Shown: piece by piece, positions 7,895 to 31,639 of the stretch
Layout: each line of letters begins with the position of its first letter
Numbering within the stretch: the stretch's first letter is position 1
NCBI GenBank assembly: GCA_022701825.1
Contig: JAKONR010000444.1
Span: 1 to 42,181 of the forward strand
From: Hymenobacteraceae bacterium
GTDB taxonomy: Bacteria > Bacteroidota > Bacteroidia > Cytophagales > Hymenobacteraceae
Direction: 5' to 3'
Length of the DNA: 42,181 nucleotides
The notes under the pieces: model-generated
The model's input: only the letters and a program-made list of their open reading frames with translations
The model's database searches: none
What the model was told of the DNA's origin: nothing
Position numbers and translations under genes: made by a program

Positions 7895-10069
7895 TCAATT
7901 ACTCCCAAGACGCGGATTGTGCCCCATAATAAACTGAAACACGCGCTTCGTTAGCTCCTGCGCCTCGGGGCTGAGCATGTTCCAGGAGGTTATCTCCTCA
8001 GCCGCCGCCTCGGCGAATAGTCGCTTCTTTGCGCTGCTGACCGTGCCACTCCCACTGCTACCCCCGAAGGAATCCGGCAACTCGGCAAACTTGCTCTTCA
8101 AGTGCTTGGCCAAGTAGATGCTCTTGTACTGGGCCTGCTTGAGTTGGGTGGCATCGAAGTATTCAGCCTGCTTGGGGTAGAGTTTCTTGAGGGCACCCAC
8201 GATGACCTCGGGCTTAAGTAGGTTCTCAATTTCGCGGGTGGGTGTCACGATGTACTCGAAGCCAGCGTGCTGCTGTGAGGTGAGTCGCTGGTGCTTCTTA
8301 TCCTTGCCAGCGTCTTGGTCAGCAATAAGCATAATACGGTTGGAAATAGATAGTGCTCGAATGTTTTTCAACGCCTCAGCTGTAATAGTTACCTCCTGTT
8401 TCTTCGCGCCGAAGGTATAGTGCGATACGTTAGCCCCAGCGTATTCCAGGAAAGAGTAATGCAGTCCTTCCAGTAGAGAATAGGTCTTGCGTAAGTGGCC
8501 GAGGTAAGCCGCTAAATATGCTTTGATATAAATGCGGTCAGTAATACCTTCAACCCAAATGGTACAATTAGAAAGAAAAACCGAAGAGTTTTGAACCCCT
8601 AAAGCTGTGAGACAGCCTAAATCATGTGGCGCAGTAACCTGTACCTGATAATTAGCTGTATTATTAGTCAAAGTCTTTCTAAAGGTAAATAGATTAATAT
8701 TTTCACCTTCATCAAACGCAAAATCAAGCAAATGATTAGAATGCGTCGTCAAAAATATTGTGAGCTTTTTCTCAAGTAGCACTGGATGCGTAGCTATTGT
8801 TTGTATAAATAATCGCTGAAAACCAGGGTGTAAGTGCGTTTCAGGCTCTTCAATGAAAAACCATGCTCCCTCAGGGGCGATGAATAGCGGGTATAGCAAG
8901 AGTATAATTGCTTGTATTCCATCTCCTAGATGTGGCAAAGCCCTTTCCTCTCTGTCTACTGCGACTAATATATTTATTTTTTTTCTGTTAGGAACAATTC
9001 GCACAGGCTTCCCATTAAAGAATGTCTCCGAAATGAATAACTCAAAACGCTCAAACTCTTCTCTATCATCTATTTCTGAATTTTTCTTTTCATCTATAGC
9101 TTTATAAAGTGACAGCCCTGTATGCACGCTTATTTTAGCATCAGTAAGTTCGTAATCCACTAACGTAGTAGTATTAAAAATATCGCTTTTTATTGAAGTG
9201 TCTCGTGCTTCTATCAGCGTTCTAGCTGTCCGCAGTGTTGGAATATAAGTCCTATTAGAAGTCCTCGGTCGCTCCTGAGTAAAGACTTTTTCCAATAATA
9301 CAAATACATCAGAGCAAGCAGTTTCTATTCTTTTTATTATAGGTAAAGCAGTTATAGATAATTCCTCCCTAAAAGAAAAATCACGAAAGCTACTACTTAT
9401 ATATGTATTACCTGTTACAAATTCCACACTTGCTTCTGATGAAGCTAATTGAGCCCTATCGTCATTTATAAATAATCTATTCATGCCTTGGAAATCGTCT
9501 TTCCGGAGAGTGTCATATATATTGAAAGCGCGTCTTAAATTTAGCATAATTCCCTTCATGGTAATTAAATATTTTTCAACGATACCTTCGCGAATTGAAT
9601 TAAGCAAAGCTCTTCTATCGCTTGCCAGGCCTTCTATGCCATTAAATATTTTTTCCAATTCGATAGAGTCCTGCTCGATATCAATATAATAGTGGTCGGA
9701 TTTATGATGGCTACTGCTTTCAAGTATAAAAAATGATAGTATATCGTCATTAGCCTTAGACTTAATTTCTATTTCAATCTTATAAACTTCACTATCATTT
9801 GGATTAAGCATTCTGCCACGCGCAATTTTTATTTTCTCACCTAACTCATCTACTATTTCAGTGAAATTCATCATTCGAGTTGGATGACATTTCATAATGC
9901 TGCGCATGAATCGGCTCTTGCCTGAATTATTTTCTCCAAGAAAAATATTAATTGGGGCTACATCGCCAAAGTAGTGTGGTAATAGGTTCGAGTCACCTAG
10001 TGTATAGGCTGCAAAATCACTTTTCTGAGCATCATCATCCGAAAGCTCAAAAGACAGGTAGCGTTCCAT
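7895..10069 (-). CDS. AAA ATPase with C-terminal TOPRIM domain, OLD-family-like
   Basis: Walker A GENNSGKS, ABC-like FIEEPETHLHPGFQ and TTHSNHLLDF, then TOPRIM-like WVEGITDRIYIKAYL and IADQDAGKD; AT-rich relative to flanks. Confidence 0.85.
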   Translation of the reverse strand: MERYLSFELSDDDAQKSDFAAYTLGDSNLLPHYFGDVAPINIFLGENNSGKSRFMRSIMKCHPTRMMNFTEIVDELGEKIKIARGRMLNPNDSEVYKIEIEIKSKANDDILSFFILESSSHHKSDHYYIDIEQDSIELEKIFNGIEGLASDRRALLNSIREGIVEKYLITMKGIMLNLRRAFNIYDTLRKDDFQGMNRLFINDDRAQLASSEASVEFVTGNTYISSSFRDFSFREELSITALPIIKRIETACSDVFVLLEKVFTQERPRTSNRTYIPTLRTARTLIEARDTSIKSDIFNTTTLVDYELTDAKISVHTGLSLYKAIDEKKNSEIDDREEFERFELFISETFFNGKPVRIVPNRKKINILVAVDREERALPHLGDGIQAIILLLYPLFIAPEGAWFFIEEPETHLHPGFQRLFIQTIATHPVLLEKKLTIFLTTHSNHLLDFAFDEGENINLFTFRKTLTNNTANYQVQVTAPHDLGCLTALGVQNSSVFLSNCTIWVEGITDRIYIKAYLAAYLGHLRKTYSLLEGLHYSFLEYAGANVSHYTFGAKKQEVTITAEALKNIRALSISNRIMLIADQDAGKDKKHQRLTSQQHAGFEYIVTPTREIENLLKPEVIVGALKKLYPKQAEYFDATQLKQAQYKSIYLAKHLKSKFAELPDSFGGSSGSGTVSSAKKRLFAEAAAEEITSWNMLSPEAQELTKRVFQFIMGHNPRLGSN

Positions 10070-10156: not shown

Positions 10157-11503
10157 CTACTTCACCGTCATTAAGTCTTCCAGCCGCGTGGTAAAAGCCC
10201 CCGATTGCCATTTAGCCCGCCCCTGCCACGGCGGGCGCACGCCAACCGGCCCCTGCGGCACTGCGCTCCCCAGCCGTACCGTGCCCCGGCCGTAGCGCGC
10301 ATTCAGCCCGTCAAGTGTTGCCATGAGTTGGGGCCGGTCTGCGCTTACAGTCGCCTGCACCCGGGCAACCGGCGCGGGTGGGGTGAAGAGACCGAGTTGT
10401 TGCCCGGTAGTCGGCGGCTCCAGCCCGTCGAGTACCACACCGGCTTTGTGGTAGGTAGTGCCCGGCTCCCAAATCTTGGTCAGCAAATGCGTAGCATATT
10501 GCGCCAGTACCCGCGTGTCAGATGATGGCCCACCGGGCAACGTGAGCGTAGCCGAGCACGAGTAGGGTGGGGGCACCCTCGGGTCGAAACGATTCTTCTG
10601 TACGTAGACCGTCAGCACGTAGGCTTGGTCGCCTTGCGCCCGTAATTTCTCGGCGGCCCGCGCCAGGAAGGAGGCTATGGCTGCCCCCACATCGGCCAGT
10701 TGGCTGAGCGGGCGGCCAAACGTGCGTGAGCAGCTAATGCTCTGCCGGTTCAGCGTACCGTCCTCGCTGGGGTGCAAACCCGCGTAGGGATAGCCTTGCA
10801 GCTCGCGCACCAAGCGCGCTCCAACAACCCCGCCGAGTATTTTGCGCGCCCACGCTTCACTGACTTTGGAAAGGTCGGCGGCCGAGTCAATGCCCGCTGC
10901 CATGAGCTTCTGGGCGTACTGCCGGCCGACGCCCCACACGTCACCCACGGCCACCTGCCCAAGCGCCCAGGCCCGACGTTCGGCCGAGTCGAGGTAGAGT
11001 ACGCCGCCCAGCTCAGGGCTTTTCTTGGCTACACGGTTGGCGAGTTTGGCTAGGGTCTTCGTGGGGGCTATGCCTAAGCAAGTAGGAATGCCGGTGCGAG
11101 CTTTGACGTTGGTGCGAATCGTGTGTGCGAACTGCTCCAGCCCACCGCCCAGGTGGGGCTGCATGTATTGGTCCAAGCTAGCCAGGTCGAGGAATGCCTC
11201 GTCAATGGAGTATATTTCTACCCCCGGCGTGACCTGGCCTAAATACCACATCACACGCCGGCTCATGTCGCCGTAGAGCGTGTAGTTGGAAGAAAACACC
11301 TGTACCTGGTGCTGGCGCAGAAAGTCTTTTACTTGGAAGTAGGGCGCGCCCATTTGCAGGCCCAGGGCCTTGGCCTCCGCCGAGCGGGAGATAATGCACC
11401 CGTCGTTATTGCTGAGCACGACGACGGGCCGGCCCTCGAAGCGGGGTTGGAATACCCGTTCGCAGCTCACGTAAAAGTTATTGCAATCCAGCAGGCCAAA
11501 CAT
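10157..11503 (-). CDS. umuC: Y-family DNA polymerase, UmuC-like
   Basis: FGLLDCNNFYVSCERVFQP, SNNDGCIISRS, YSIDEAFLDL; follows a UmuD-like gene with a 3-bp gap. Confidence 0.92.
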   Translation of the reverse strand: MFGLLDCNNFYVSCERVFQPRFEGRPVVVLSNNDGCIISRSAEAKALGLQMGAPYFQVKDFLRQHQVQVFSSNYTLYGDMSRRVMWYLGQVTPGVEIYSIDEAFLDLASLDQYMQPHLGGGLEQFAHTIRTNVKARTGIPTCLGIAPTKTLAKLANRVAKKSPELGGVLYLDSAERRAWALGQVAVGDVWGVGRQYAQKLMAAGIDSAADLSKVSEAWARKILGGVVGARLVRELQGYPYAGLHPSEDGTLNRQSISCSRTFGRPLSQLADVGAAIASFLARAAEKLRAQGDQAYVLTVYVQKNRFDPRVPPPYSCSATLTLPGGPSSDTRVLAQYATHLLTKIWEPGTTYHKAGVVLDGLEPPTTGQQLGLFTPPAPVARVQATVSADRPQLMATLDGLNARYGRGTVRLGSAVPQGPVGVRPPWQGRAKWQSGAFTTRLEDLMTVK

Positions 11504-13433: not shown

Positions 13434-13469
13434 AAAAAAGCCCCAGCTCAGCGAGCGCGGGGCTTTTTT
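13434..13469. terminator. Bidirectional intrinsic terminator between convergent genes
   Basis: aaaaaagccccagctcagcgagcgcggggctttttt. Confidence 0.85.
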
Positions 13470-18659: not shown

Positions 18660-19139
18660 ACGTGGCTCACGACATAGAGTGCATAGCTTAAGACATTCAA
18701 AAAGTCTGTCTTGATATTATGAATGTCGGCCACAGTAGCAATAATGGCCCCCACGGAAAGCACCGCAAGTAGAATCTTTGCCCAGCGTTTCCCTCTCCTT
18801 ATGGCGTAGAAAAATCCTGCTTGCAGCAAACAGAAAAGCACGAGCGCCACGGGTGCTAGGGTAGTGCGTGGCGGGGGTACTATATGCAATAGGGGGCGAA
18901 GTATTGAACTTGCGAAGGAGACGATAAGCCAGCCATACAGCAGATTAGAAGCTAGTACTTCTCTCTTTGTTAGTAGGGCGGACTCCATTAAACGAGTAAC
19001 AGGTATTTCATGCCCGCTAAGGTAATCGGAGCGGCAGGCTGGGCATTTAGGAGAAGCGCGATAGCAAGCTGGCCAAGCGAAAGCACCAGTTTCAAAAAAA
19101 AGTTGAGGGTACCTTTTCGATAGATTAGCATAGCTCATG
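18620..19139 (-). CDS. Hypothetical multi-TM membrane protein
   Basis: Probable start MSYANLSKRYPQ at 19139; CPACRSDY motif, then several hydrophobic helices. Confidence 0.55.
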
Positions 19140-19844
19140 GTATTCGTCCCCGAGAGCATTCTTAATCTTAATGCTATTAGTAATGCCATCTAAATCAGGG
19201 AATAGCATATCGTGGCGGATGCCAAGCCTGAACAATGCTCTTTGGATTTCTGAAGCCGTACTAGCATCGAATTCAAGCTTCGTCATGGTAAGTGCGTAAC
19301 CATCTTCAAAGTCCTGCTCAAATGGCACATCTGGTTGAGGCTGGATTGAGAATAGCCCACCTTGACCAGTAATTCTAGGCGTTATATGCGGTGGAAAGAA
19401 AAACCCCGGCTCTTGAATTTTCCACGGGTTATTGTGTAAGCTAGTGTCTAGGTGTTTGCAGAAGTGTGCTACGTAAATAGCGGCACCGTCTGAAGCACAT
19501 TCCTCAATCCTGCCATTGCCATTTACACAAGGTAGAGTAGCAAAATATGCGGCTACAAGTGGACTAGATGACCAATCTAGAAGTCTTGTTGGTAGTCCAT
19601 GGTGTTGAGCTACTGCCAACCATTCCCAATCGTTTAATGGCTGATAACCATGCCTATCAATTGCCCTTAGCTTAAAGCTGCGTAACGACTCGCGTTCTGT
19701 ATACTCCCAGTTGGAGTTTCTACCAACGGACGGAGTCAAGCTGTAATTTTTGTTTTGAACTCCACGAAATACGTGATGGCCGCAGACATAGCTTAGAAAA
19801 TGCTGGGTAAGCTCTTGAAAGGAATTGATTTGAGTAGTTTCCAT
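19125..19844 (-). CDS. FRG-domain protein
   Basis: HVFRGVQNKNYSLTPSVGR and WLAVAQHHGLPTRLLDWSSSPLVAAYFA are FRG-domain motifs. Confidence 0.85.
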   Translation of the reverse strand: METTQINSFQELTQHFLSYVCGHHVFRGVQNKNYSLTPSVGRNSNWEYTERESLRSFKLRAIDRHGYQPLNDWEWLAVAQHHGLPTRLLDWSSSPLVAAYFATLPCVNGNGRIEECASDGAAIYVAHFCKHLDTSLHNNPWKIQEPGFFFPPHITPRITGQGGLFSIQPQPDVPFEQDFEDGYALTMTKLEFDASTASEIQRALFRLGIRHDMLFPDLDGITNSIKIKNALGDEYHELC

Positions 19845-24519: not shown

Positions 24520-27500
24520 ATGCCAAACCACACCGTATCAGAAAAGCTCGTTTACCTGCGGCGCACAGGGCCAGACTTGTCGCCCAGCCAGCTTCCAGAG
24601 TTGGTAAATATCCTCAAGATTGTTGGCCTTACCCCGCGCAGCGGTAACAACTCACGTACCGCCTACACGGGCGCGGCCAACGGCCTCACGCCGGGCGGCA
24701 CCCTGACCACGCTGCGCCAGGGCGAAACCTACGAGTTTAACTTTAGCAAAACCGATGGCACGTACAGCTTACCCGACTTCGTAAAAGTAACGCCACCCAA
24801 GATTTCGAGCCTGGGGCCGTTGAGTGTTGCGCCGGGCGACACGCTCAACATTACGGGCACAAACCTGCTGTGGACAAAGACCGTGCTAGTGGGCGGCGTG
24901 CAGGCGGTCATTAACTCGGCAGCCACAACCAACACCAGCGTAGCAGTTACGGTGCCGCTAACGGCAGCCGTTGGGAGCAATATTCCCGTGGCGCTTTTCG
25001 CGGAGACGGGCAGCGACATAAATACTGCGCTTACCATTACGGCGGCCGGGGGCGGGGCAACCAAGCTGCTACCGCCCGCCAACCTGCGGCAAACGGGCAG
25101 CACGACCACCAGCATTACAATGGCCTGGGACTCGGTAGCCAACGCCACTGGATACCGCCTGCGGCGCAACGGCAGCACAACGCTGCTGGCGGGCGGGGCG
25201 CTGAACTACACCGAAACCGGCCTGACTGCTGGCGCTACTCCATCCTATGACGTGCAGGCCATCGGCGGCGGCTCCTACTCGGATAGCAACTTTTCGGCAG
25301 CCGTGCAGGCAGCCACGACGGGCGGCGGCGGGGCCACCGCGCCGCAATTGCAGAGCGCCCGCGTCGAGCAAAACAGCCGCCAGCTAATAACGGCCACGTT
25401 TAACAAGAGCCTCGACCCGGCCGTGGTGCCGATGGCTGGCGATTTTATGCTCAGCAGTACGCACCGCGTGCTGGGCGAGGCGCTGCCAGTACGTACCGGG
25501 GAGATTCTGGCCTCGGGCTACCACGAGCCGACCAATTCGGCGCAAACAATCGTGGCCGGCTCCAGCACGGCGGTACTCAACCGCGACGTGCGGGGCTGCA
25601 TGTTCCAGGCGGGCACAGTGACAAAGGCCCGCTTCTATTGCCCGGCTTTCGCCCCCGGCGCGCAGGTGTACGTTATTGTTGGCGGCAGCACGCAGGAAGT
25701 AACTGGCCAGCTCACCTTTGGGCAAGTGAACACGGTAACGCTGCCCACGCCAGTAACAGTGCCGCAGTTTGAGCGCGTCGGCCTCTACGTAACCGGCGAC
25801 ACGGGCCAACTCGGCTGGCCGGTTTCACCGGCTGGCGGCGGCCTGGGCGGGGCAGACTACGGCCTGGATACGATGTATGGCGTTAGCGACCAGAATATCT
25901 ACGTCTCGGTGCAGTGCTTTGTGGACAAGGCTCCGTACTTCGCTGTGATGGGTAACTCGCTCATTGCTGGTTATCCCAGCAACCAGCCTAGCCCGATGGG
26001 TGGGCGGGCGCAGAACGTGAGCCTAGCCGGGGTGCTGGCCGACGCGCTTAAATGCACCTACCAGGATATGAGCTGGAGCGGGCAAACAACCACGCAGATG
26101 CTGGCGCGCTTTGACCAGGACATTGTAGCGAAAAAGCCGCGTTACTGCTGGATTGAGGGCGGATACAACAACCTGACCGACCCGAACGTGGGCAATGACC
26201 TGCTGGAAATGGGGCGTCGGTGCATTGTAAACGACATTATCCCCATTTTCACGGGGTCCGCTCCAAACGGCTCGCCCACCGAAAGCTACCAACCGGGCTT
26301 GCGGCTGCTGGCCGACCTGACTACGCTTATCCGCAACTACGTAAATGCGCAGCCTGCGGGCAAGGCATACCTCATGGACTTTGGCCCCATCCTGGGCGAC
26401 CCCGGCCCCGTTGACCCAGCGAACCCGGGCGGCGGCCCGGTTCACTACCTCTTCAAGGCCGCCTATTACAGCGGCGACCGCATCCACCACAACCAGGCCG
26501 GTATTCAGGCCGTGGGCGACGCGGCCGTTGATTTCGTGCTCAAGCGCACGCCGGTAGGTCTTACGGGCAACAGCCTGACGCTGAAAATTGACCGGGCTTT
26601 CGTGCTTTCGGACGCGCCGGTATCGCTCTCGTTTAATGGCAGCGTCAAGCCAATCCAAAGCACCGATGGCGGCATAACAGCCTCGCTTTCGATGCAGCCG
26701 ATAACGCTGGCCCTGAATCCAGAAGCGGAAGTGCTGAACTTCGTGCGGGCCAACATCGAGCAGAACGGCCACTACCGCGCTGATAAATTCTTTGCGCCGG
26801 GCGTAGCGGGCTACGTGAATTTTAACCCCGTCGAGGGCAACAGCTTCGTGCTGGCCGTATCCCCGAACGGCAACCTGCTCAACGACTTCCGCGAGGGGTC
26901 GGCGTGGATTGAGAACCCAGGACGGGGCGCAGGCGTTAGTATTGCCAACGGCCAAACGTTCTTCACGGCACCAACGGGCGGGGCCATTCTCTCCTACATC
27001 AAGGGCTACTACCGCCTATCCATTGCCTCCAACGGCGCGGTTGAATTGCTAAGTAGCGACGATGGAATAACCTACGCGAGCACGGGGGCCAGCACTACTA
27101 TCACGCATAATGGCCTGTACGTGTACGCGCTCTACGGCCCCGCGCCGACCAATACAAAAGCCTTTGGCGTAACCGCGCTACCCACGCCCGGCTCTTTCAC
27201 GGACACGGGCGCAAACTACCGGGGCGCAATTGCCCCCACCATCTTGCAGGAGGACGTTTACGACAGCCGCAAGCTCGCCTATGTAGGCGAGTGGAAGGCA
27301 GCCACGGACGCGGCCATTTTCCAGTCGGGCAAGGCGTATGTGCTCTACCCTAGCCGCAACGGCAGCGTGCTCATTCGGGGGCGCGGCCGGGGGGTCAAGC
27401 TCATCGGCATTGTGCGCGACGCGGCGCTGACCATCAGCATCAACGGCCAGGCCCCGGTAACAATAGACACCTCGGCCGCAAGCAATAACACCTCCACGGC

Positions 27501-27609
27501 CTTCTATACCTCCGCGCTCAGCAGCGGCAGCGTAGAAACGGAGGTGCTGCTTGCCGCCAATGGTAGCCCCAGCTACACCTTCCTCGACGCGGTGGAGTGG
27601 GTAAATTAA
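24520..27609 (+). CDS. Modular tail-spike/fibre-like protein with IPT/TIG-like, FN3-like and SGNH hydrolase domains
   Basis: 1029 aa; PKISSLGPLSVAPGDTLNITGTNL (IPT-like), PPANLRQTGSTTTSITMAWDSVANATGYRLRRNG (FN3), FAVMGNSLIAGYPS / IEGGYNNL / GDRIHHNQAG (SGNH blocks I, III, V). Confidence 0.75.
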   Translation: MPNHTVSEKLVYLRRTGPDLSPSQLPELVNILKIVGLTPRSGNNSRTAYTGAANGLTPGGTLTTLRQGETYEFNFSKTDGTYSLPDFVKVTPPKISSLGPLSVAPGDTLNITGTNLLWTKTVLVGGVQAVINSAATTNTSVAVTVPLTAAVGSNIPVALFAETGSDINTALTITAAGGGATKLLPPANLRQTGSTTTSITMAWDSVANATGYRLRRNGSTTLLAGGALNYTETGLTAGATPSYDVQAIGGGSYSDSNFSAAVQAATTGGGGATAPQLQSARVEQNSRQLITATFNKSLDPAVVPMAGDFMLSSTHRVLGEALPVRTGEILASGYHEPTNSAQTIVAGSSTAVLNRDVRGCMFQAGTVTKARFYCPAFAPGAQVYVIVGGSTQEVTGQLTFGQVNTVTLPTPVTVPQFERVGLYVTGDTGQLGWPVSPAGGGLGGADYGLDTMYGVSDQNIYVSVQCFVDKAPYFAVMGNSLIAGYPSNQPSPMGGRAQNVSLAGVLADALKCTYQDMSWSGQTTTQMLARFDQDIVAKKPRYCWIEGGYNNLTDPNVGNDLLEMGRRCIVNDIIPIFTGSAPNGSPTESYQPGLRLLADLTTLIRNYVNAQPAGKAYLMDFGPILGDPGPVDPANPGGGPVHYLFKAAYYSGDRIHHNQAGIQAVGDAAVDFVLKRTPVGLTGNSLTLKIDRAFVLSDAPVSLSFNGSVKPIQSTDGGITASLSMQPITLALNPEAEVLNFVRANIEQNGHYRADKFFAPGVAGYVNFNPVEGNSFVLAVSPNGNLLNDFREGSAWIENPGRGAGVSIANGQTFFTAPTGGAILSYIKGYYRLSIASNGAVELLSSDDGITYASTGASTTITHNGLYVYALYGPAPTNTKAFGVTALPTPGSFTDTGANYRGAIAPTILQEDVYDSRKLAYVGEWKAATDAAIFQSGKAYVLYPSRNGSVLIRGRGRGVKLIGIVRDAALTISINGQAPVTIDTSAASNNTSTAFYTSALSSGSVETEVLLAANGSPSYTFLDAVEWVN

Positions 27610-28517: not shown

Positions 28518-28551
28518 AAAAGCCCCGCACTCAGTGAGCGCGGGGCTTTTT
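28518..28551. terminator. Intrinsic terminator
   Basis: aaaagccccgcactcagtgagcgcggggcttttt. Confidence 0.85.
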
Positions 28552-28623: not shown

Positions 28624-28657
28624 AAAGCCCCCTCGTGTTGTGGCGCGGGGGCTTTTT
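28624..28657. terminator. Second intrinsic terminator
   Basis: aaagccccc tcgtgttgtggcgc gggggcttttt. Confidence 0.75.
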
Positions 28658-28833
28658 GTTTTGGGCTGTGTAAGCTAGTGGATGAGAATCCAGCAGTGAG
28701 GATTTGGCGCTTACTAGTTATCTAGAGTCAGGCGGTTAGTTAGCGCCTGAAACTCGCTGGCTGGGCGTTCTTAGTCGCGCATCGGTCTACAGCTTTACTA
28801 CTACCCCTTAATCCAACCATTGCAAAAGCCCCA

Positions 28834-28845
28834 GCTCAGTGAGCG
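28834..28845. repeat. Left 12-bp target-site duplication
   Basis: gctcagtgagcg, identical to 31501-31512. Confidence 0.9.
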
Positions 28846-28951
28846 CTTGTCCTTACCCAAATCTTTTTTGCCGAAACCTTTCTACCCTTTGTAACGCCCC
28901 CCCCCCAGCGGCGGTAACCACGACAGGCTACTACTATGGAGCCTGCTACCC

Positions 28952-29857
28952 GTGAAAAAACTAATCACCTTCTTGTCTTTATTCGCCACTACCACCGCGT
29001 TTGGACAGCAATTGCCCTGGGTACCATTTACCTGGACGGAAGGCAGGTCAGCCATTATGATACCCGTAACGATTGATAATCTGCCACACAAGTTGCAGAT
29101 GCAATTTGATTTAGGCGCGGTAACGACGGTGGTTTACGGCAAATCTTTCGCGCCTTACCTAGCTCATTATCCGGCTTTACAAGCCAAACTTGATAGTACC
29201 CAAACGTTTATCATTCAAAGCCAAAAAAACAGCAAGCTGGTTGGGGTTGATTTGCATTTGGGAAAAGTCGATTTTGGGGCACGCAACATTGGCCTATTTA
29301 AAAATTTTGGTGATAGCCTGACCGATAAAATATTGGCTACGAAAGAGGTCGTGTCGATTGGCACTATCGCCCCTGACCTATTTCAAGACCGAGTGTTGGT
29401 TATCGACTACCCCCGTCGCCGGCTATGCGTGACCGATAAAGTGCCCGCCGCTTATGCAGGGGCAGCATTCCAACCATTCAAGAGTAAGAAAGGACGCATC
29501 AAGATTCCGCTGCAAATAGCTGGCAAGACCGAGGACTTACTGTTCGATACTGGTTCCAGCTTGTTTGCCCTGAGCACCACCCGCGCTCGTGCTTTGGCGG
29601 CTACCACCGGCGTTATTCAAGATTCGCTTAAAAGCTCTACTTGGGGCGAGGAATACTACGTATATGGTCGCCGTCCGAGTAGCGCCATCTACTTCGGCAA
29701 GAAGCGGCTGCCTGATGCGCTAATCTTTTCCGACAACATAAAGATTTTCGACAAGTTCTTTGAGCAGGAAGGTATCTGGGGTGTTACGGGTAATAAGTTC
29801 TTTTGGAACAACACGGTTATCATCGATTACAAAAACCATGTTTTCGGTGTGCAGTAG
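28952..29857 (+). CDS. Secreted pepsin/retropepsin-like aspartyl protease (transposon passenger)
   Basis: 301 aa with signal peptide; LLFDTGSSLFALS active-site motif, degenerate first motif MQFDLGAVTTVV, C-terminal GNKFFWNNTVIIDYKNHVFGVQ. Confidence 0.7.
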   Translation: MKKLITFLSLFATTTAFGQQLPWVPFTWTEGRSAIMIPVTIDNLPHKLQMQFDLGAVTTVVYGKSFAPYLAHYPALQAKLDSTQTFIIQSQKNSKLVGVDLHLGKVDFGARNIGLFKNFGDSLTDKILATKEVVSIGTIAPDLFQDRVLVIDYPRRRLCVTDKVPAAYAGAAFQPFKSKKGRIKIPLQIAGKTEDLLFDTGSSLFALSTTRARALAATTGVIQDSLKSSTWGEEYYVYGRRPSSAIYFGKKRLPDALIFSDNIKIFDKFFEQEGIWGVTGNKFFWNNTVIIDYKNHVFGVQ

Positions 29858-29924
29858 CTGCTGCTACGAGAAAGTCTTATCGACCTATAATTTTTGAGTT
29901 GGTCAATAGAATCGCTCGGGTGGG

Positions 29925-29962
29925 ACATGAAAAAGCACCGGCCTAGTGGCCAGTGCTTTTTT
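29925..29962. terminator. Hairpin/terminator downstream of transposase
   Basis: aaaaagcaccggcctagtggccagtgctttttt. Confidence 0.75.
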
Positions 29963-29965
29963 GCG

Positions 29966-31423
29966 TTACCAATCCACGAGTTGGGCAGCCATGTTGACGC
30001 CTTCCACCAACAGGCGCAGGCTACGGCGGCCCAGCCAGAGCGTTTGCCAGCCGGGTAAGCCGTCGCCTTTGCGTCCCAGGTGTCCACCGAGGGCGGCCAA
30101 GGCCAGGAACACCGCGTAGACCGTTTCGAGCGGCCGGCGACTCTGGTGGCGCAGCACCCGTAACTCCATGCTGGTCAGGCCGGCCGTCTCGGCAGGGGCA
30201 TCCGGTTCGAGCCGGCTTTTCTCGCGCAGGTCTACCAGCGCCAGCGCCACGACGCTGAGCAAGGCCACGGCGGCAAAGAGCCGGGCGGCTGTTTGCAACT
30301 GGAGCTTCTCGGCCCCGAGCCCCGTTTTCAGCGCCTTGTGGAAGTCTTCTATCAACCAGCGGCTGGCGTACTGGCGCACGCAGGTCAGGGCCTGGGCGAA
30401 GTCGGTGACGGGCTGGTCGCTGAGCAGCATCCATTCCAGGCCGGGGGCCGCCCCGGCACCCGTCTCTTCCCACACCCGCACCACGCTGCCCGGCACGGGC
30501 TCGCCCTTGCCCGTCGCCCCGCCCGGCCGCTGCGGGGCCCGTAAGGCCAATGGCCCGCTGAAACTTACCTGTAAGGCCACCTCGCGTGCTGGCTGGCGAG
30601 GCCGCTCCCGCAGGGCCAGGGTAAGCTGTCCGGCGCAGGGCTGGGCGCGGGCTACCTCGAAGAGGCGGCCGGCCGGCCGCTTGGCCGGTCCTGCCACTAG
30701 GGCCCGGTCTTGGGCAGCCCGCACCACGAAGCCCAAACTTTGGGCCTGACACTGCTGCAAGTGCTCGTAAATATCCGCACCCCGGTCGGCTACCACCACC
30801 CAGCGCGTGCTCGGCGGCGGACTGCCCACCGCCCGCAGGCTCTGGGACCACAGGGCCGACTCGCGAGGGCGGCCCTGGCGCAGGCGCGAGCCACCGTCGG
30901 GGTGGGCCTTCTCGGCCTCGGGCACGGGCTGGCGTACGTGAAACTGCTGGTCCATGAGGCCCAGCAACGGCAGGGCGGGGCGCTTGGCAACCGGGTCGGG
31001 GTCGGTGGCGGGCCAGGCAGCGGCCACCAGCGAATGCAATAGTACGCCCTGGCTGCGGGGCTTGCCTGGCCCCACGGGGCCCAGGCCGGGGCGGCGCTCG
31101 GCCGCCTCGGGCCAGCTCAGTTCCGTCGTGTCCTCGATCAGCAGGAAGGTGCCGGGCGCTTGCAACTGCTGGCTAACCAACTGGCGATGCGGGGCATGCA
31201 ACGCATCTGGGGTGGCCTGCGGCTGGCCCAGCAGCGTGTAGGCCGCCTTGCTGGCGTAGGACGAGCCCTGGCTCACTTGCGGAATCGTGGCCCCAGGCTG
31301 TCGCGCCCAGCCGGCAGCCAGCCTCACCACACGCCGGCTGCGGCGTACGTCGCCCAACACCACAGCCCCAAACTGCGTCTGCGCCCACAAGCCGGGGTCG
31401 CCAAAGTGCGTCGAAATGCTCAT
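29966..31423 (-). CDS. IS4-family (Tn5-like) transposase
   Basis: 485 aa; VVLGDVRRSRRVVRLAAGWARQPGATIPQVSQGSSYASKAAYTLL, LIEDTTELSW (D), VVADRGADIYEHL (D), RWLIEDFHKALKTGLGAEK (YREK-type E). Confidence 0.92.
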   Translation of the reverse strand: MSISTHFGDPGLWAQTQFGAVVLGDVRRSRRVVRLAAGWARQPGATIPQVSQGSSYASKAAYTLLGQPQATPDALHAPHRQLVSQQLQAPGTFLLIEDTTELSWPEAAERRPGLGPVGPGKPRSQGVLLHSLVAAAWPATDPDPVAKRPALPLLGLMDQQFHVRQPVPEAEKAHPDGGSRLRQGRPRESALWSQSLRAVGSPPPSTRWVVVADRGADIYEHLQQCQAQSLGFVVRAAQDRALVAGPAKRPAGRLFEVARAQPCAGQLTLALRERPRQPAREVALQVSFSGPLALRAPQRPGGATGKGEPVPGSVVRVWEETGAGAAPGLEWMLLSDQPVTDFAQALTCVRQYASRWLIEDFHKALKTGLGAEKLQLQTAARLFAAVALLSVVALALVDLREKSRLEPDAPAETAGLTSMELRVLRHQSRRPLETVYAVFLALAALGGHLGRKGDGLPGWQTLWLGRRSLRLLVEGVNMAAQLVDW

Positions 31424-31500
31424 CCCGCAAGCTACCCACCGCCCCTAAAAAAGCGCCGACCTACCGGCCGGCGCTTTCTCATGTTTTGGGTAAGGACAAG

Positions 31501-31512
31501 GCTCAGTGAGCG
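31501..31512. repeat. Right 12-bp target-site duplication
   Basis: gctcagtgagcg, continuing into the cut terminator half cggggctttt. Confidence 0.9.
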
Positions 31513-31639
31513 CGGGGCTTTTCGATTGCAAGCTTTAGGCTACTTATGAAGTGTTGAAAATACTCGCAATATTGTCGTAGATTTTAGCACAAGTAAATGT
31601 GATTCAATATTTTGTCTTATTGGATTGTAGTTTTGCGGT

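Follow-up and report, generated by a model that had tools for sequence, protein, structure and literature searches.

In this study, we have analysed a 2655-bp transposon in a 42,181-nucleotide stretch of Hymenobacter DNA (the window) and conclude, with a probability of roughly 0.8, that it is a cargo transposon of a clade related to IS50/Tn5 that inserts between the CCC-rich half-sites of terminators, duplicates the elastic interval between them and replaces the broken terminator with its own hairpins; the clade appears, from the sequences compared so far, to be found in Hymenobacter. The terminator target with its variable-length duplication, which was absent from an earlier sequence-only reading of this DNA, appears to be the most unusual feature of the element.

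The element spans positions 28846 to 31500 and consists of terminal inverted repeats (TIRs), a transposase gene and a convergent cargo gene, with a target site duplication (TSD) outside the TIRs. The sequence-only reading had described perfect 16-bp TIRs, a 12-bp duplication and a 2655-bp unit, and all of these were re-found at the same coordinates, as were its intact Tn5-like transposase, which carries an IS4_3 match and the catalytic residues, and its convergent 301-aa gene, which has a hydrophobic leader at its start. The features are as follows.

28824 to 28833, unstranded: left stem arm (AAAAGCCCCA) of the interrupted Rho-independent terminator, in the same register at 49 sites
28834 to 28845, unstranded: left copy of the TSD (GCTCAGTGAGCG), the interval between the terminator arms
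28846 to 28861, forward strand: left TIR (CTTGTCCTTACCCAAA, perfect, 16 bp); the first 23 bp (28846 to 28868) match the non-hairpin end of 163-165-bp MITEs at every base
28952 to 29857, forward strand: cargo ORF, 301 aa, with leader peptide and DLGA and DTGS motifs, aspartyl-protease-like
29930 to 29962, unstranded: predicted internal bidirectional terminator hairpin adjoining the transposase stop codon, the former left-end hairpin of the IS, now without a TIR
29966 to 31423, reverse strand: IS4/Tn5-like transposase, 485 aa, DDE and YREK residues intact
31446 to 31480, unstranded: predicted bidirectional terminator hairpin, subterminal at the right end and immediately internal to the right TIR
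31485 to 31500, reverse strand: right TIR (CTTGTCCTTACCCAAA)
31501 to 31512, unstranded: right copy of the TSD, identical to the left (GCTCAGTGAGCG)
31513 to 31522, unstranded: right stem arm (CGGGGCTTTT) of the interrupted terminator

Approximately 0.2 perfect 16-bp inverted pairs are expected by chance per 42 kb, and such a pair is therefore not rare alone; the chance of a 12-bp duplication matching at exactly the TIR ends is approximately 6e-8. Of 120 genomes from the genus, a set that includes Hymenobacter siberiensis and other named Hymenobacter, 45 contain this TIR (a reversed control pattern gave 1 match). Both end hairpins fold strongly on both strands. The host contig, of 42 kb, comes from a Hymenobacter draft genome with 573 contigs, and the insertion region is prophage-like: to the left lies the gene after a tail-protein-like gene (24520-27609), and on the other side is a replication module with a helicase (phrog_16) and a nuclease-like protein (phrog_824). 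Elsewhere in the window, genes for an AAA_21/AbiEii-like ATPase (7898-10069), an FRG-domain protein (19128-19844) and a UmuC-like polymerase (10160-11503) may represent an accessory or defence region.

When the window site is joined without the second TSD copy, it reads TTGCAAAAGCCCCAGCTCAGTGAGCGCGGGGCTTTTCGATTGCA, an intact Rho-independent terminator. The element lies inside this terminator (AAAAGCCCCA-[GCTCAGTGAGCG]-CGGGGCTTTT), and nearly all of the IS, MITE and cargo relatives are placed likewise: the target is a Rho-independent terminator or a similar CCC...GGG hairpin, with the element between its two stem arms. Each strand is cut directly 3' of AAAAGCCCCG, and because the cut is in a fixed register with the stem arms, the duplication is the interval between the arms, 7 to 14 bp. 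The TSD lengths at 49 distinct Hymenobacter sites were 7 bp (3 sites), 8 bp (8), 9 bp (9), 10 bp (12), 11 bp (5), 12 bp (6) and 14 bp (6). Among the 98 arms of these sites, C was present at positions -5, -4 and -3 in 92, 95 and 85 arms, respectively, and over 14 positions the arms held 13.1 bits of information when aligned on the cut, compared with approximately 9.0 when aligned on the dyad. Watson-Crick pairing between the arms reached 6.96 of 8 positions, compared with 5.82 for shuffled partners (maximum of 6.32 in 2000 shuffles) and 2.08 of 8 at random flank positions. Of 69 sites, 51 had a strict half-terminator motif on each side, compared with 0.2% of control positions; many of the sites that lack it are visibly degenerate terminators, and a few are not. 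Approximately one-quarter of the sites have no clean TSD, and the flanks there are usually still half-terminators, with some exceptions. At two loci (L022:1504-3056 and L126:1501-1664), the copies of the interval that flank the element are inverted and not direct, as though one hairpin half had been inverted after insertion.

Empty sites, which the sequence-only reading had recommended looking for, were located for five relatives as uninterrupted terminators at the orthologous positions: the targets of L034 and L101 are 100% identical in G073, and those of L105, L004 and L106 have 85-94% identity in G072, G009, G046 and G099. In the canonical terminators of one genome (G023), the median interval would give a duplication of 14 bp, with 16 of 50 intervals longer than 14; none of the insertions lies at an interval above 14 (compared with the G023 terminators, Fisher P = 8e-6 and Mann-Whitney P = 9e-9). 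Since such longer intervals are frequent and are never hit, the interval is elastic but bounded.

It could be argued that the element inserts anywhere and that only insertions in terminators survive selection, so that the bias is not one of target choice. Insertions in genes are deleterious and terminators are intergenic, as this explanation would have it; however, selection cannot fix the cut to an exact base or tie the length of the TSD to the spacing of the arms, insertions outside hairpins are rare among the collected sites, and the proteobacterial cousins show no such register. Selection in place of targeting was ruled out by the cut register, and we regard it as very improbable.

Uninterrupted terminators of the same type are present in the window at 13437-13466, 28519-28549 and 28624-28655, and the first two are nearly identical to the interrupted one. 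Near-identical copies of this kind are what would be needed if the identical 12-bp flanks were two copies of a repeated terminator rather than a TSD. Yet the left flank holds only the left arm and the right flank only the right arm, each abutting its TIR exactly, and dozens of further sites, whose intervals are unrelated in sequence, have the same layout. With one arm per flank, mimicry of a TSD by repeated terminators was ruled out, and there is almost no chance that it is the correct explanation.

We postulate that a transposase dimer on the two TIRs would capture the two arms as inverted half-sites, each comprising an A-tract and GCCCCG with CCC at -5 to -3. Each transposon end would be joined to the 5' edge of the interval, one per strand, and gap repair would then duplicate the entire interval. 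Bending, melting or extrusion of the interval may allow both 7 and 14 bp to be accommodated, with no fixed 9-bp Tn5 stagger. After insertion, the bidirectional end hairpins would face transcripts from either side; because its own ends carry these terminator hairpins, the element probably restores the termination that it has broken. The end hairpins would probably also shield the transposase from read-through, and the cost to the host would be low. We infer both the predicted binding of the arms by the transposase and the termination of transcription by the element ends from sequence.

A different reading of the target is that it is an extruded cruciform or single-stranded hairpin, as proposed for IS1272, and not a pair of duplex half-sites; strand transfer would then take place, on both strands, at the 5' foot of the extrusion, and an interval of any length would be duplicated. 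The strong conservation of the arm sequences (the CCC core and the A-tract) and the upper limit of 14 bp do not favour this pathway, and 20 of 50 TSDs, lacking self-complementarity at their ends, would not readily form a hairpin. It is favoured by the pairing of the arms with each other beyond the consensus and by the 7- to 14-bp range of the TSD, which exceeds half a helical turn and would be hard for a rigid dimer on B-DNA to accommodate; for IS1272, too, a pathway that duplicates the stem-loop has been depicted as a hypothetical alternative (PMC5678879). From the sequence alone, an extruded interval cannot be distinguished from a flexible spacer between duplex half-sites; we consider recognition of an extruded structure rather unlikely and retain recognition of the two arms as inverted half-sites as the preferred mechanism.

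The transposase matched NCBIfam IS4_3 (NF033590) at 273 bits, compared with a cut-off of 160, and aligned over nearly its full length with the Tn5 transposase in the PDB (E = 1.6e-34); a Foldseek search with its structural model, which is of low confidence (pLDDT 56), also placed Tn5 first (E = 3e-21). D98, D213 and E359 are all present in the single transposase ORF, as is the Y352-R355-E359-K366 set that corresponds to the Y(2)R(3)E(6)K signature of the IS4 family; the catalytic spacers are 114 and 145 residues, compared with the published D(60-110)D(100-150)E, so that the first is slightly above the range. The IS50 subgroup of the IS4 family is characterized by an 8-9-bp duplication, a size of 1350-1550 bp and the end signature CW------Y---CA-A--W- (PMC2266710, PMC3292447). 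The end signature is present, with C13, A14 and A16 in CTTGTCCTTACCCAAA and W at position 19 at both ends. The TSD falls outside the subgroup range, being 12 bp in the window and 7-14 bp in the relatives (at least 10 bp at 29 of 49 sites), as does the size, since cargo-free relatives are mostly 1578-1610 bp. Because TSD length and size depart from the definition (PMC2266710), we classify the clade, from these characters, as an IS50-related member of the IS4 family outside the IS50 subgroup. Its TSD is centred on 10 bp with a range of 7-14 bp, compared with the "about one helical turn" of the IS4 family.

All 47 loci of the transposase group in GTDB contigs lie in Hymenobacter, and within the family 24 of 205 genomes contain the group; in 388 genomes from the class, the matches outside Hymenobacter were limited to two weak ones, and a DNA search of PLSDB identified one copy on a Hymenobacter plasmid. 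The ordinary form is an IS of 1578-1610 bp with a hairpin at each end and no protease gene. Relatives of MITE size range from 72 to 328 bp overall: the MITEs are mostly 158-186 bp, and the smallest are palindromic elements of 72-74 bp with little beyond TIR-hairpin-TIR. In Hymenobacter sp. IS2118 (G074), many contigs, for example C86-C92, start or end exactly at the 1578-bp IS, which is thus a multicopy element that breaks draft assemblies.

Several other cargo forms were found, and passenger DNA is therefore recurrent in the relatives. The 3912-bp form (L037 and L092) carries a CarboxypepD_reg protein and a 220-aa ORF. The 3566-bp form of H. jeollabukensis (L184:940-4505), which sits in a terminator with the TSD GTCAGCGAC, encodes an ArsR regulator, a MerTP mercuric transport fusion (231 bits, cut-off 180) and a DUF5990 protein; no merA was seen within this unit. 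A 3628-bp form in H. montanus carries an alpha/beta hydrolase with a leader and a nested IS, and a 2053-bp form in H. sediminis has a 113-aa membrane ORF beside a broken transposase. There is also a 687-bp TIR-bounded unit without a transposase (L130:586-1272, in G078), which consists of a 165-bp MITE, half a terminator and a lipoprotein-like ORF; its TSD is degenerate, and the apparent same site in G048 holds only the MITE (L094).

Cargo-carrying IS elements are known as transporter IS. The window gene lies inside the TIRs and the TSD, as in such elements, and the sister 3912-bp unit is found in identical form at two sites. The sequence-only reading took the outer TSD to show that the whole unit had moved; a TSD by itself is no proof of this, as the cargo could have entered a resident IS later, and whole-unit movement is better supported by the loss of the inner TIR, the MITE-type outer end and the sister unit. 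The IS's own left TIR is absent beside the hairpin at 29930, where only ACATG remains before the hairpin. The sole left TIR lies at the outer end, which is of the MITE type and not a normal IS left end; the first 23 bp of this outer end are identical to the non-hairpin end of 164-bp MITEs. L037 too has an orphaned internal hairpin, and it is identical to L092 at 3912 of 3912 bases, with different TSDs (ACATCGATGC and GCATAGCTGC); such units do, therefore, move whole. The claim that the protease is mobile cargo holds in so far as an extra gene lies inside a mobile IS4/Tn5-like unit; because the window element is present as a single copy in the draft genome, we infer its own mobility as a whole.

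The protease-bearing copy probably stems from an IS that, after loss of its left TIR, adopted the one in a nearby MITE-type end on the far side of an adjacent gene; that gene would thereby have become cargo. As insertion takes place at gene ends, whole genes are likely to lie between two such ends. If, instead, the protease gene entered a resident 1.6-kb IS after it had landed, the outer TSD would stem from the IS alone and the protease would never have co-moved. This would require a TIR to have been moved or swapped with the TSD kept, given that there is no TIR at 29930 and that the outer end is of the MITE type, and the sister cargo units L037 and L092 moved whole; in its favour, the ordinary element measures 1.6 kb, with its end at the hairpin near 29930, and the protease-bearing copy is known only once. 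We judge later entry to be improbable and prefer capture of the gene by use of the MITE-type end.

The identity of the cargo is weaker than the "aspartyl protease" of the sequence-only reading: the protein has a DTGS motif at residue 199, which is conserved in four homologues, and a DLGA motif in the first lobe, but its match to PF13650 (21.6 bits) is under the Pfam gathering score of 24.3, and a single-sequence structure model (pLDDT 32) was unusable for the fold. It is thus best described as a putative, aspartyl-protease-like protein. Its nearest homologues (64-69% identity) are chromosomal, without TIRs, in four other Hymenobacter genomes, and DNA similarity to them stops at the end of the coding sequence. 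Among the relatives compared, no second instance of the protease as cargo was found. The protease as an old component of the element was ruled out, since cargo-free relatives dominate and the nearest homologues are chromosomal without TIRs. The sequence-only reading would have been contradicted by related copies that always end near 29925 without the protease; most do end near 29930 and lack it, and the protease is therefore a late, lineage-specific addition to the element.

One script was applied to 16 distant plasmid-borne members of this transposase family. Seven proteobacterial elements with a clear TSD all had one of 9 bp, and their arms paired at 1-3 of 8 positions, at or near chance. 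One Deinococcus, one Nostoc and several haloarchaeal elements lie in CCC...GGG palindromes. On one Natribaculum plasmid and in Halorubrum, Halococcus and Halobellus, all 13 sites that had a TSD showed a length of 10 bp within a CCC-rich palindrome (for example, CCCAC-N10-GTGGG), and another 8 haloarchaeal sites had no clear TSD. In arms copied by hand, the CCC core at -5 to -3 was present in 21 of 26 haloarchaeal, 4 of 4 Deinococcus/Nostoc and 2 of 14 proteobacterial arms. No clear TIR or TSD was found for the Gloeothece and Dongshaea relatives. Natribaculum breve CP095391.1 and Halorubrum ezzemoulense (L216, L220 and L229-L274) carry IS50-like elements and 243-256-bp MITEs, one 637-kb haloarchaeal plasmid has 28 forward end motifs, and the CCCAC-N10-GTGGG target palindromes resemble the end hairpins of IS200/IS605 (TnpB). 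Since the haloarchaeal TSD is constant at 10 bp, elasticity is shown only in the Hymenobacter clade. The haloarchaeal hairpins are probably not terminators, and the recognized feature is therefore more likely to be the CCC...GGG palindrome than termination. Tentatively, and with some doubt, it can be envisioned that a Tn5-like lineage in Bacteria and Archaea finds CCC...GGG hairpins, and that in its Hymenobacter branch the distance between the arms (7-14 bp), not the enzyme, sets the stagger. If this is true, targets at gene ends would give a route by which single genes are bracketed and mobilized as cassettes.

The stagger of a DDE transposase is thought to be fixed by the geometry of its active site; dozens of independent natural insertions suggest here that duplication length tracks target architecture, for an enzyme related to Tn5, the best-studied transposase. 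The specialist interest of the element would seem to lie in this combination of terminator homing and elastic duplication. A terminator-homing transposase would be a tool for safe-harbour insertion, the delivery of its own bidirectional terminators into terminators would explain the low-cost spread of an IS, and the recurring cargo (mercury transport, secreted enzymes and possibly a protease) shows that these small elements shuttle genes.

The open-access literature that was searched held no account of this element or of terminator homing by an IS4/IS50 element, and it may already have an ISfinder entry. The clade shares with IS50/Tn5 a transposase that is homologous along almost its entire length and has the DDE and YREK residues, and a TIR that fits the IS50 end signature. 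Unlike IS50, the Hymenobacter form is 1578-1610 bp without cargo, with a 7-14-bp TSD, a terminator target, end hairpins and cargo; the target bias of Tn5 is GC-leaning only (PMC2266710, PMC3292447). The IS231 subgroup of IS4, from the Bacillus cereus group, has passenger genes, a defined target preference, a TSD of 10-12 bp and a TIR beginning CAT, and in a 2008 survey passenger genes were noted within IS4 for this subgroup only (PMC2266710). The Hymenobacter clade likewise has passenger genes, a target preference and a TSD of variable length, but its TIR is different and its passengers lie mostly 3' of the transposase gene. Haloarchaeal MITEs and SMR-A elements insert in near-terminal IS605-type palindromes, SMR-A without duplication (PMC3119063). 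They are similarly small TIR elements in palindromes, and the haloarchaeal cousins use CCCAC-N10-GTGGG; unlike SMR-A, a duplication is made, and the parts of PMC3119063 consulted draw no link to an IS50-like hairpin-homing clade. IS1272, of the IS1182 family, targets inverted repeats or stem-loops, replaces the stem-loop, makes no TSD and has no shared target sequence (PMC5678879). The Hymenobacter clade also seeks inverted repeats or stem-loops; it belongs, however, to a different family, does not replace the stem-loop but duplicates the interval (49 sites), and uses arms with a common CCC core. ISRm22 and other IS elements in REP palindromes provide the case of an IS4-family member at the axis of a repeated palindrome (PMC1525189). 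Whereas ISRm22, of the IS4Sa subgroup, uses one REP sequence, the Hymenobacter clade uses many unrelated terminators, with a TSD length that tracks the arm spacing. Group IIC introns also target Rho-independent terminators and thus have their target in common with the Hymenobacter clade; by contrast, they are retroelements, which insert beside the stem-loop by reverse splicing.
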